Positions 30,791 to 35,604 of a DNA stretch of 64,000 bases are shown here, piece after piece. Source of the DNA: Phycomyces nitens (lineage: Eukaryota > Mucoromycota > Mucoromycetes > Mucorales > Phycomycetaceae). The notes under the pieces are model-generated. The model ran no database searches and was not told the DNA's origin. It saw nothing but the letters and a program-made list of their open reading frames with translations. How positions within the stretch are numbered: position 1 is the first letter of the stretch; the number at the start of each line of letters is the position of its first letter. The position numbers were made by a program, and so were the translations under genes. Location of the stretch: contig JAHRBC010000006.1 of NCBI GenBank assembly GCA_022702545.1, positions 248,001-312,000 on the forward strand, given 5' to 3'.

Positions 30791-31270
30791 GATTCCAAGC
30801 AAGTCCTCGATGTGGCCCTTTTTTGATTTTTACAAGGTTGAGAATGAAAGACATTGGTTTTTAAACACCTCTTTAAAGCAAGGAAAAAGACTTTATTCCA
30901 AGTTCTAGACTTGTTTATTTATTCATTTATTTTAATGGTAATGGTAATGGTGTACAATCTATACAAATTATTTATAGGGATCTCCAAGACGACTTATAGA
31001 TTTGTGCTAATAGACAGAATGGCTATTGATAAATAGGCAAATACTTTAGTGATTGGTCAGAAACCATTATTAAAATGCGAATGGGTTTTATGGATATAAA
31101 GTCATATACTTTGTGTATTGGCTATCCTTTTCTGGATATTGACCAGGATGATGGCGGAGGAGCTATGGGATATTATCAATCTTGGCATTAGAAATCAATA
31201 TAGGCTGTAATCATTCGATTCAGAGAATATTTCTGCTGCTACGTTTGTAATTTACAGTCTATATATAGTA
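30791..31270. other. Intergenic region
   Basis: About 480 bp between the Rossmann-fold gene and the left end of the Fanzor-bearing element. AT-rich; nothing recognised. Confidence 0.5.
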
Positions 31271-31420
31271 CAGTGTTTCTGCTTGAGATATTAGAGACGA
31301 CGTAAGTTTTCTTTTTTTGGACGAATGAAAATTAATTTCTAGACAATTTGGTTACCTTTTTTGGACAGGCAAAAAAAGAGAATTGAGACACAAAAGAATA
31401 AAATTTGGCCAAGGAGATTT
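31271..31420 (+). repeat. Left terminal inverted repeat of Fanzor element
   Basis: Inverse match of 34594-34746. The best-conserved block runs from GGACGAATGAAAATTAATTT through GTCTAGACAATTTGG-type sequence to TAAAATTTGGCCAAGG, differing from the right copy by a few substitutions and a small indel block near the outer end. Confidence 0.9.
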
Positions 31421-32223
31421 AGTCAATTAAGCTTGTTTTTATCTTTTGGCAATCATACAAAATATATACATATACACATAAAGAGCATCTTTGGGTTCTC
31501 TTGCTAGTATTTTACCACCTATTATCCTGTAATTTGTGTACACCCATATCACATCTTCATTTATATTAGATGAGCAAGAACAAGGTCCCTAGGAAGAAAG
31601 CTCTACTTTTGCTAAAAGAAAAGTAAATTGAAACATTTATCGGATGTGATGTGTTATGCAAGAAACTATTGTTCATCATTATGCTATTATTTAGGATACA
31701 AAAATATTCTCCTGATGCCTTGAGAGTAAAGAAGGCTGCTCGCGTATCAAGAACGAATACCCCAGACGAAGCTAATGTACAACGCACTCGCGATATAATT
31801 ATCTTGCAATCGTCTTTCTTACGCAAAGTGGTGTATAAAGCACAGCTTTTTATCAATTACTATATCCTCTGAAGCATCACAAATTTATCAAGTGATTTAT
31901 TTGAACAATATTTCTTGGTACCGAGTCTGCAGAGTGATTTATGGTCGTTTAATGATAGTAGAGTTGCAACCCCATTACCCAAGACTACAAAATCTTTAGG
32001 CAAGCTATACAGAGCTGATTCAAACAAACGAGGTTAATCTTACTGTCAGCCTGAATGGCATCAAGAACTATGGCGCAGTAATATCTTTTGCATACAAGAC
32101 TATTGCAACTACATACAGCAGCTACTATGTAGAAAACTTTGAAAACACAATAGCAAACTATTTTATTTATATAACAAGAGAGAATTTCAGGGCAAGATAT
32201 TATTATTATCTTATTTGCATTTA

Positions 32224-33572
32224 TAAACTCAGATAAAAGAATGTTTGGACCTATGCAAATAATTTTTCAAGGAAAGAAATGCTTACATATATTCAACATT
32301 TAATATCTCAACAGTGATGATAGCTAGAGCATCCAAACTTGAAACATAAAAAGATATACATGTCAAGTATTCATTTATTAAAAAAAAATAACAAACTAGT
32401 ATTTAGTATGACTGCCTTTTGCATCAATCACTGCCTGACATTGACTTTGCATACTCCCCACTAAACGTGAAGCAAGTTCAGTGCCCAGTATCTGCCATTG
32501 TCGTTGCATTGCAACCTTCAAATCGGCTACATTTTGGATACTGGCCCTTACTTCACTCATCTTTACTTCGAGGGCCCACCAAACGTGCTCAATGGGATTT
32601 AAATCAGGACTTTGAGCAGGCCAGTACTCAAAGCCCTTGATTGCATGACCCTCTTTCCACCACTTCGCATAGGAGCCAGTATGGCAGCTGGCGCCGTCTT
32701 CTTGGAGTATGAACTCCTTATCCTGTTCCTCTGCCAGATTTTTGACCCAGGGAAGGAAGTTCTGGGCCAAAGTGTTGACATATACGTCTTGGTTTACATT
32801 GCCTTCGAGGAAGACCAAAGGGCCAAAACCACCTGCCCAGAAACAGCTCCATATCATGGCACTACCCTTGCCCCACTTCGTCACTGGTACAATATTCCCT
32901 TCCTGGTACCTCTCTCCAACTCGTCTGATCACCCGAGCACTGCCATCATTGCCCTCGACTGTGAATCGTGACTCATCAGACCAGACTACACTGCTCCATT
33001 GGTCATCTGTCCAATTGACATGATCCTTGGCCCATTGCAGTCTTCTTTGCTTGTGTATTTCAGTCAAAGCTGGCTTATGAGCTGCAATATAAGCACCAAA
33101 GCCAAGGTTCTTGAGACAACTGATTACTGTTGCTCTACAGACAATAATCTCCATCTCCTGCAATGCGAATCTCAGCTGATTGTAATTGGCAAATGGATTC
33201 TTCCGTATGCATTGCACAAGATGTCTCTCCGTCCTCTCGTTAATTATTTTTGGTCGTCCAGAGCTCTTTCTAGGAAGAGGAGATCCTGTTTCTTTGAATC
33301 TCTTAATGATCTTCTTGACAGTTGACAAATTCATTTCGACAATTGCCGAAATCCTTGTGGGACCAATCTCAGCCAAGTGCAAGTACATGATTCCACCAAA
33401 CTTGAGCTCATCAGCCTTATAATATGGGCCGCGAATGTTCTCTGCTGCAAATGATATTTTCATGTTGGTGTTGATTAGTAAAAAGAAGAGAAAATAATGT
33501 TTTTATTTTTCAAAAAAACCGTTTTTTTTAGGATTTTTGTGAGAGGTCCAAACATTTTTGTGTGTGAGTTTA
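32224..33572 (-). mobile_element. Tc1/mariner element, nested and apparently intact
   Basis: About 1.35 kb with imperfect terminal inverted repeats of roughly 30 bp. The left end starts TAAACTCAGATAAAAGAATG; both ends share ATGTTTGGACCT about 20 bp in. TA flanks each side (32222-32223 and 33573-33574). It carries one uninterrupted transposase gene on the minus strand and lies inside the Fanzor gene, so it arrived after the Fanzor element. Confidence 0.9.
32396..33463 (-). CDS. Tc1/mariner transposase
   Basis: Intact 355-aa cut-and-paste DDE transposase. The N-terminal region contains a helix-turn-helix (ISAIVEMNLSTVKKIIKRF) and a second DNA-binding segment beginning GRPKIINERTERHLVQ, the GRPR-like linker typical of Tc1. 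The catalytic core has VWSDESRF (first Asp), LQEDGASCHTG (second Asp) and SPDLNPIEHVWW (Glu). I count 35 residues between the second Asp and the Glu, one more than the usual DD34E of Tc1. No stop or frameshift interrupts it, so the copy may still be functional or recently so. It is transcribed opposite to the host Fanzor gene. Confidence 0.95.
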   Translation of the reverse strand: MKISFAAENIRGPYYKADELKFGGIMYLHLAEIGPTRISAIVEMNLSTVKKIIKRFKETGSPLPRKSSGRPKIINERTERHLVQCIRKNPFANYNQLRFALQEMEIIVCRATVISCLKNLGFGAYIAAHKPALTEIHKQRRLQWAKDHVNWTDDQWSSVVWSDESRFTVEGNDGSARVIRRVGERYQEGNIVPVTKWGKGSAMIWSCFWAGGFGPLVFLEGNVNQDVYVNTLAQNFLPWVKNLAEEQDKEFILQEDGASCHTGSYAKWWKEGHAIKGFEYWPAQSPDLNPIEHVWWALEVKMSEVRASIQNVADLKVAMQRQWQILGTELASRLVGSMQSQCQAVIDAKGSHTKY

Positions 33573-34593
33573 TAAGATAGGTTTATATCAAATTCTAGGA
33601 TCTTTCTTCTTTTGAGCTCACAAAAAAAAACGACTTTAATATCCAGGAAATTACAGAGAATTTCCGGGTGTGTATGGTGGATCCTGGAAAAAGAGATGCC
33701 TTTTACTCATATAATGGTGATGATGATATAAGACGCTTGAAAATCAAAGAATACTTCAATACATACCGTAGCCTTAAGCGAATGAGAAATGACTATGCAA
33801 GGAAGGTGGCCCAAGGAATCAAAGAAGTTGAAACACATATCTCATCAGTAAAAACAACATCAAGAGAGCAATCTCTACGACATACCCAATATGCCGACTC
33901 TATTCAATTTTTATAGCTTCAGCTACGCTGAAGTATACTGGAAATATTTTAGAGGTCGACAGAAATCCCTAGACAATTGTACCAACATCCTTATCCATGG
34001 GTCTACAAAGTATAATAAAGACAGAAGAGACGCCATATAGCAAAAAGGCGGAACCCTGAAAGTACACACCAACCTGTCCAACCAATGCAACAAGTCAATT
34101 ACTTGTTGTTTGTATCCCATCTCATAGTAATTTAACATATTACAGAAACTCTCATCAACGTGTCTTTAGTGCCAGAGACGTTTCTAAAATGCCTTTTAAT
34201 TGTCTTTGGAGATGGGTTTACAATCATCTTGTAAAGCAAAAAGATTGAAGAATTGAACCTTTTGGACATCAATGAATTCAACACTTTAAAGGTACTTGTG
34301 CACTTTTATTTATTCTTTATATTCAATATTGATTGTGTAGGTTTGCAACTCCTGCAAGACTTAAAACATTTCTGAGATGCCAACGACAGACCTATTCATT
34401 CAATATTAGTTTGCAACAACTGTAATATGTTTTGGAATAGTAATATGGCGGCAAGAAACATGTTTTATATTGTGCAGGAGATTTGGAGTGGCAATGGTAG
34501 TCCAGAAACCTTTAGTCCTCGATCAAGCTTTGGTGGGCAAACTTAAAGATGTTTACAGGTAAAGAGTATATACTAGTCATTTTTACCTTGTCT

Positions 34594-34746
34594 AAATCCC
34601 CTTGACCAAATTTTATTCTTTTGTGTCTCAATTCTCTTTTTTGCTTGTCCAAAAAAGGTAACCAAATTGTCTAGAAATTAATTTTCATTCGTCCAAAAAT
34701 AAATAAATAAAAACTAATATCGCCTCAATCTCAAGTAGAAACATAG
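34594..34746 (-). repeat. Right terminal inverted repeat of Fanzor element
   Basis: Inverse partner of 31271-31420. It begins about 50 bp after the end of the Fanzor pseudogene and ends next to a TA dinucleotide. Confidence 0.9.
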
Positions 34747-34878
34747 TAATTAGTGACTATGATTTCTATTTTTGGAAAAGGTTGAATCCAATTATAGACT
34801 GGGTATAAGGGTGTTCTGCCACACAAATACATTGCATTTCAGCGATTCCTATTATTATTATTATAATTATTATTATAA

Positions 34879-34926
34879 TTGTAATTGTAATTGTAATTGT
34901 AATTGTAATTGTAATTGTAAATGTAA
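34879..34926. repeat. (TTGTAA)n hexamer array
   Basis: About seven tandem units of TTGTAA, the last ones slightly degenerate. Confidence 0.9.
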
Positions 34927-35145
34927 TTATTATTACATTGTATAATTAAATAAGGGGGTATACGTCATCCATATGTAGTTAAATAAGTGTATTGGCACAA
35001 CGCGAGGCACATACACGCAACCCTATATAAATATATAAATATAAATATATATACATATACATATTTATATATATACACACACATATATATATTTAAATAT
35101 GTATTTTAAAGAAGGGGTAAAGGTGGGGTATGGTTGTGGGCAAAA

Positions 35146-35180
35146 TGGAAATGGAAATGGAAATGGAAATGGAAATGAAA
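35146..35180. repeat. (GGAAAT)n hexamer array
   Basis: About five to six tandem units with a degenerate 3' end, in the upstream region of the PUF gene. Confidence 0.85.
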
Positions 35181-35604
35181 ATGAAATGGAAATTGAAATA
35201 AAGATAAAATAAATATCTAGCAGCAATAGTAATATACACCACTTGCAACATGCTTTATAGACATTTTATATGCTTGAAAAAAAAAAAAGAAAAAAGAAAA
35301 AAAAAGAAAAGAGATACGTGTCGTTTTGTCCTAATTGCTGCTTGGTTCCTGCTGCTGTCACAATTTAGTGGGCTTGTTTTTGTATTTTAGCCCCGCATAC
35401 TCTTGTTTCTTTCTCTCTTTCTCTCTTTCTCTCCCTCTCCCTCTCTCTCTTTCTCTCTCTCTTTCTTTCTTATACATAGATATACATATATACATATATA
35501 CATATATATATATATTATATATTATATTATACTATACTCTATTATATTATACACCTCCTTTACACCATCGCTCCATTTCAAAGACTCTAACCTCTTCTTT
35601 TAAT

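Follow-up and report, generated by a model that had tools for sequence, protein, structure and literature searches.

A decayed Fanzor1-bearing transposon of Tc1/mariner type in Phycomyces nitens, split by a younger Tc1 element

A survey of 2013 described Fanzor1 genes inside Mariner elements with TA duplications, and also Fanzor1 in the genera Rhizopus, Phycomyces and Mucor (PMC3627910). Elements such as PUl-4 and PGv-1 carry Fanzor1 between terminal inverted repeats (TIRs) with TA duplications, some of them without a transposase (PMC3627910). In Spizellomyces, 42 Fanzor loci, 19 of which are full length, are accompanied by 134 ghost loci, and Ty3 is among the genes reported as nested; the Spu-1 locus of Spizellomyces punctatus, with the protein SpuFz1 (PDB 8gkh), has its guide RNA at the right end (PMC10432273). 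The Mucorales are represented by PpFz1 of Parasitella parasitica (PDB 9cf0; PMC11423790). Here, these systems are compared with a Fanzor-like locus in a 64,000-nt stretch of Phycomyces nitens (contig JAHRBC010000006.1, positions 248,001 to 312,000, forward strand), which is referred to in full as the window and whose first letter is position 1. With a probability of about nine in ten, the locus is a dead, non-autonomous transposon of Tc1/mariner type (TA target, CAGTG-type tips) whose cargo was a Fanzor1 gene with intron sequence and which a young Tc1 has since divided in two.

Like Spu-1, the locus measures about 2.1 kb without its insert, has many relatives that lack Fanzor and belongs to a family with nested insertions; its TIRs are different, and its RNA is only predicted. 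PUl-4 and PGv-1 share its layout, whereas here a decayed, Mucor-type copy is split by Tc1, and related Fanzors in one genome lie behind two different TIRs. A preliminary description of the locus had offered the nested arrangement as its novelty; a 2023 paper had already described genes lodged within Fanzor loci, Ty3 being one (PMC10432273). Mariner-type elements with Fanzor1, Mucorales Fanzors, ghost loci and nested insertions all have published precedents, and the relic is an element of a known kind. What is new is a hairpin common to copies of all four Fanzor1 lineages of this genome, with two compensatory pair changes, which is a candidate guide-RNA module.

Boundaries of the element and the inserted Tc1

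The tips, together with the TA on both sides, delimit the element exactly at 31271-34746, the position given in the preliminary description, and the terminal repeats are about 155 bp long (about 150 bp had been proposed).

31269-31270, no strand: left TA flank (target-site duplication), abutting the tip
31271-31426, plus: left TIR of family A, tip CAGTGTTTCTGCTTGAGAT, recognised from the repeat arms; 86% to the right end, 45 matches in the genome
32221-33575, no strand: Tc1-type insert, ends uncertain by about 4 nt, with 43-nt arms, 98-99% copies elsewhere and an uninterrupted site in relatives
32396-33463, minus: Tc1 transposase frame, 355 aa from the first Met (stop to stop 32396-33502, 368 aa)
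34588-34746, minus: right TIR, recognised from the repeat arms
34747-34748, no strand: right TA flank, abutting the tip

The inverted repeats form two adjoining blocks, 31307-31376 with 34637-34706 (70 nt, 94%) and 31372-31426 with 34588-34642 (55 nt, 95%). Subtraction of the insert of about 1355 bp gives the native size of about 2.1 kb that had been suggested. When up to three mismatches are allowed, the 27-nt TIR-A tip occurs 129 times in the 49-Mb genome and its reversed pattern not once; this control, together with 16 other places (one a mere short fragment) that hold DNA related to the Fanzor 3' half, argues that the element is not a product of chance. Counts of tip proximity given below draw on 100 of the 129 places and are lower bounds.

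In at least 11 of the 16 tabulated TIR-A elements a TA adjoins the tip at either end, and the tips begin with CAGT, as in Tc1/mariner. Both features speak against a Fanzor element of another superfamily with incidental TA, for instance MuDr, as published for some Mucorales Fanzors; no 9-bp duplication is seen by eye in the flanks of the tabulated elements either, and such an assignment appears very improbable. A target motif beyond TA is likewise not visible by eye in these flanks. The assignment to the Tc1/mariner type rests on the TA duplication and the inverted repeats, both present in the window element, because no DDE transposase of its own was recognised there in the frame list and domain search, the inserted Tc1's apart; non-autonomous members of the type exist.

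Candidates for a partner transposase of TIR-A are limited to decayed pieces with weak helix-turn-helix (HTH) resemblance, found in TA-flanked elements of about 0.68 kb and in five chimeric loci. The 0.68-kb family (L049-L051, L061-L066) has a left tip that matches TIR-A and keeps decayed HTH-like pieces, and parts of its first 300 bp or so recur in the Fanzor loci L039, L041, L042, L045 and L052. The Tc1 of C11 was considered as partner and rejected, being a free-standing family. In L053, a TIR-A element of 1 kb in which no Fanzor pieces were recognised, the plus and minus frames at 166-462 and 815-1078 share a long stretch, which is an internal inverted repeat.

The Tc1 arms (43 nt) are 79% complementary, and its single open frame holds the domains HTH_Tnp_Tc3_2 (63.9 bits) and DDE_3 (48.8 bits), both over their cut-offs. 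At least 10 near-complete copies at 98-99% identity are present elsewhere in the genome (40 of 169 candidates scored), and both of the two copies inspected retain the 368-aa frame. The Fanzor DNA of the window is 74-93% identical to its copies over longer pieces; the closer identity of the Tc1 copies and their open frame therefore make Tc1 the younger event. The insertion point is uninterrupted in the related copies L016, L018 and L019, in agreement with the later insertion of a 1.35-kb Tc1 that had been postulated. Directly to the right of the element lie simple repeats (ATTGTA/ATTATT, GGAAAT and CT-rich) at 34854-34937, 35148-35211 and 35403-35470.

The Fanzor remnant and its lineages

The remnant is compared with P0001-P0003 of Mucor flavus, hypothetical Fanzors with a Cas12f1-like TNB. 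The pieces of the remnant are as follows.

31627-31872, plus: N-terminal part, in a frame that takes in probable intron sequence; a related piece of L018 is 75% identical
31798-31869, plus: sub-stretch aligning to residues 123-146 of P0001-P0003
31873-32220, plus: continuation in two frames, part of which aligns to residues about 214-250 of P0001-P0003
33599-33916, plus: piece with the RuvC-I motif MVDPGKRD (DPG), linked by genome relatives and by a profile to SpuFz1 and PpFz1
33852-34040, plus: FRGRQKSLDN...IHGSTKYNKDRR, identified from reading frames, relatives and the Mucor Fanzor alignment
34060-34291, plus: broken frames with IVFGDGF and DINEFNTLK, with a glutamate six residues before the first CxxC
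34292-34340, plus: intron of 49 nt judged from sequence, with GT-AG borders, after ...NTLK and ahead of VCNSC
34341-34546, plus: zinc ribbon CNSC...CNNC with a stop in between, and RuvC-III region FWNSNMAARNM; matched with C8:282397 (E=1.3e-4)

No Fanzor-like frame in the window exceeds 105 aa, and stops and frame changes separate the motifs. The motifs quoted in the preliminary description are nevertheless present in its order, most of them in the listed open frames and IVFGDGF and CNSC only on closer reading. The DPG of RuvC-I and a relocated glutamate before the CxxC are marks of Fanzors (PMC10711439), and both are found here, the latter as E-FNTLKV-CNSC across the inferred intron.

The window pieces alone have no match in the profile collections; the connection to Fanzor runs through their relatives in the genome. 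The RuvC-I piece has seven genome places including itself, the other six being 73% to 29% identical, with L020 (31%) and L021 (29%) the lowest. L021 by itself matches SpuFz1 at 7.8e-5. The C-terminal frame of L020 passes PF07282 with 33.2 bits (cut-off 26.3), as does a frame of L027, and when used as a query it recovers the window C-terminus at the E-value listed above; genome-wide the PF07282 model has 20 matches, of which 15 exceed the cut-off. An eight-sequence profile that includes the window RuvC-I piece reaches SpuFz1 at 3.3e-9 and PpFz1 at 1.9e-5, and no further PDB sequence up to E=1. The insertion of about 100 aa in the RuvC domain of PpFz1, FRI (PMC11423790), does not stand out in the frames that were read, and no search was aimed at it.

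A protein search with a broken Fanzor of lineage A2 (stops written as X, 7993 candidates sharing most words scored) returned at least eight proteins, five from Mucor flavus and one each from Mucor plumbeus and Helicostylum pulchrum. Five window pieces are collinear with the Mucor Fanzors of 690-745 aa, matching residues 123-146, about 214-250, 451-540, 539-586 and 675-714 of P0001/P0002 in this order; the E-values of these alignments refer to a set of eight sequences. That the Fanzor-like motifs are a chance resemblance in degenerate frames of a repeat like a miniature inverted-repeat transposable element would accord with the missing profile match of the window pieces, and is hardly credible given this collinearity, the relatives that pass PF07282 and the profile match to SpuFz1. 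Judged by its sequence, the element carries a broken Fanzor1 gene. The identity and motif order proposed earlier are upheld by the relatives and the Mucor proteins, and the inverted repeats do flank similar reading frames elsewhere in the genome. A search against Fanzor/OrfB_Zn_ribbon profiles, which had been named as the test, fails for the window pieces on their own and succeeds through their relatives.

Four Fanzor1 lineages were distinguished, behind two different TA-flanked repeats; A1, A2 and A3 adjoin TIR-A ends.

Lineage A1: the window's, with 16 copies when the window is counted, and in addition one short fragment (search with the Fanzor 3' half)
Lineage A2: L021, L027, L038-L042, L045
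Lineage A3: L054, L056, L057 and L058 by protein matches; L022, L024 and L026 by 3' ends
Lineage B: L020, L036, L037, L043, L044, whose end differs, CAGTCAGGCTGGG, and has TA flanks in L036 and L037

P0001 is close to the lineage-B copy L020: six of nine L020 pieces are 90-97% identical to it and two 63-66%, and one has no counterpart. By this likeness the host would probably stand near Mucor flavus. The Mucor flavus genes are apparently unbroken, whereas the A1 pieces of the window are only distantly similar to P0001-P0003 (26-46% identity). Zinc-knuckle-like Cys/His motifs, CKKCKQQGHSSARSPLC and CVHCGQPGHYTNKHYKC, occur in the N-terminal part of A2 and B Fanzors (L020 5414-5881 and 5954-6043; L027 293-379 and 436-876).

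The retained intron suggested in the preliminary description is supported at 34292-34340: homologous intron sequence is present in all seven other A1 copies inspected, two of which have GC in place of the GT donor, and in lineages A2 and B the reading continues there without an intron.

Several observations weigh against a Tc1/mariner-type Fanzor1 element. The window pieces alone give only noise in Pfam, NCBIfam and PDB searches, matching neither PF07282 nor any NCBIfam model or PDB Fanzor. Between intact TIR-A ends no transposase was recognised; there are just decayed remnants whose HTH_23 match is weak and under the cut-off. An AlphaFold2 model of P0001 was unusable (mean predicted local distance difference test, pLDDT, 46.8). 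Finally, the window lineage departs from the RD of RuvC-III by having another residue in place of the Asp, the window reading NSN with one codon fewer; at this third catalytic position, 10 of 15 aligned A1 copies, the window included, have N and are a codon short, while D stands in three and E in one, and one is unclear. The codon loss in A1 lies at window positions 34430-34462, in the RuvC-III region. The active GtFz1 also has Asn for Asp as third catalytic residue, without the lost codon, and the D606N variant of SpuFz1 is more active (PMC11423790). The N of the window lineage therefore need not mean a dead enzyme, and membership in Fanzor1 stays possible.

A conserved 3' hairpin as candidate guide-RNA module

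Alignment of the right ends of 24 copies reveals a short conserved block despite differing flanks. Its hairpin, H1, has the core CCGT-AACAAAC-ACGG in A2, A3 and B (L036, L037), where it coincides with the Fanzor stop codon or directly follows it, and CCAC-AACAAAC-GTGG in A1, inside the 3' end of the coding sequence. When six representatives are compared without gaps, identity over the 21-nt block is 86-100% among A2, A3 and B against 21-44% immediately outside, and 67-71% for A1 against 23-39%. Across 23 sequences, 92.1% of the stem cells pair and 13 cells are changed on both sides; paired percentage, both-side changes and covariation score were reached by none of 500 shuffles, and slid versions of the stem scored lower.

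With up to three mismatches, the H1 pattern is found at 38 places in the genome against one for the control. A right-end tip in the right orientation lies within 600 bp downstream of at least 28 of them, at 102-245 nt in 27 cases, and among the remaining 10 at least six are preceded by a left tip no more than 4 kb away. A Fanzor C-terminus precedes H1 directly at 21 of the 38 places. The remaining 17 have no match to the C-terminal query and are not called ghosts, since that query derives from lineage B and lineage-A3 Fanzors may escape it. The one H1 match that lacks both a listed tip and a Fanzor C-terminus in its vicinity is C8:1646964-1646984.

Other results pull the opposite way. Two of five shuffle measures are at chance, the number of double-change pairs (2, reached by 420 of 500 shuffles) and of further pair types (7, reached by 497), and the double changes are essentially one split, A1 against the rest, hence one evolutionary contrast. 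RNAalifold predicts zero pairs on the whole 23-sequence 3' alignment, and when a 63-nt stretch is folded sequence by sequence, the minimum-energy structure contains H1 in only 14 of the 23. In 12 of these 14 folds a second hairpin, H2 (at least four pairs, divergent in sequence and without a shuffle control), follows within 0-3 nt. Three of the five lineage-B copies (L020, L043, L044) have no H1, which loss by deletion between GAAATA repeats would explain; the alternative is a gain in L036.

H1 could instead be a signal in transposition or RNA processing, such as an end-binding site, a terminator or a 3'-end signal, or could have been spread between lineages by end recombination. Its closeness to the element end, the T-runs that follow it in several copies, the lineage-B copies that lack it and its position between GAAATA repeats in L036, where it could be a gain, are all compatible with this. 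Less easily accommodated are the compensatory changes in the stem, the placement relative to the Fanzor stop codon or coding end in all lineages, and the presence of one hairpin in elements with different tips. The stop codon of L036 lies inside H1, and P0001, P0002, P0003 and P0005 of Mucor flavus share its NTSP ending, which also speaks against a mere signal. On balance a signal role or recombinational spread is possible and rather unlikely, and H1 may represent a guide RNA, a prediction from sequence comparison.

The window copy has itself lost H1 and one arm of H2:

34527-34528, no strand: estimated breakpoint at which H1 and the 5' arm of H2 were deleted, placed by comparison with relatives

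The guess that a guide RNA derives from the element end gains some support from the conserved right-end hairpin of the relatives, which is missing from this copy. Rfam has nothing relevant in the window region and one tRNA in L016. No description of H1 was found in the literature passages on fungal and Mucorales Fanzors and transposons; figures, supplements and subscription papers were outside their scope.

Decay, movement and significance of the family

Intact relatives had been expected elsewhere in the genome. Among the copies read, which are part of the set, no unbroken Fanzor gene was found, compared with 19 of 42 full-length loci in Spizellomyces; apparently intact genes are those of Mucor flavus. 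The best lineage-B copy, L020, has two in-frame stops and one frame break. L036 (C5:7591939-7595257) and L037 (C5:7628080-7631654), both with TIR-B ends, lie about 38 kb apart in opposite orientation and with different flanks, and are 99.7% identical over 3234 bp, including identical broken Fanzor frames. Such identity at different sites indicates recent movement of an element whose Fanzor was already dead, and Fanzor-broken elements are probably mobilised in trans. L037 has about 270 bp extra adjoining its right end.

Five A2 copies have in common one half-Tc1 remnant that starts at Tc1 position 683. They lie as follows, with left ends further out.

C1:1137086-1140580
C5:1020437-1023746
C5:1954671-1958140
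C5:2182305-2186285
C5:3528714-3531838

The half-Tc1 was considered as an element boundary and rejected, as homology continues further left; it is an internal nested remnant. All five match the Fanzor C-terminus only from one common residue onward, in frames of 77 aa, L021 alone being read through, and they seem to have one internal Fanzor deletion in common. The common remnant and the apparent common deletion suggest that the nested chimera itself spread.

The window element would most likely have entered its site by cut-and-paste at TA, with transposase supplied in trans. In the functional elements from which it descends, the Fanzor1 protein would probably have been combined with a guide RNA transcribed at the right end, from the Fanzor stop codon or close to it, and, judging from work on TnpB and Fanzor, cutting of the empty site would favour keeping or copying the element. 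The copy decayed through stops, frameshifts and deletions, among them the loss of the hairpin module, and the young Tc1 inserted into the Fanzor gene. A wider and doubtful extension is that four Fanzor1 lineages with two transposon ends share one tandem-hairpin guide-RNA module, that Fanzor-broken elements spread, and that module and ends are perhaps used in trans by the Fanzors of other copies. The family would then form an RNA-guided parasite network of several families, of the ghost-locus type, in which the module is exchanged between families.

The relic itself is ordinary, and its value lies in the family, which provides Mucorales Fanzors with a candidate guide RNA that is defined in sequence and to some degree backed by covariation, and names the Mucor flavus proteins as apparently intact counterparts. 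The recently moved, Fanzor-broken elements make the role of Fanzor for its transposon testable.

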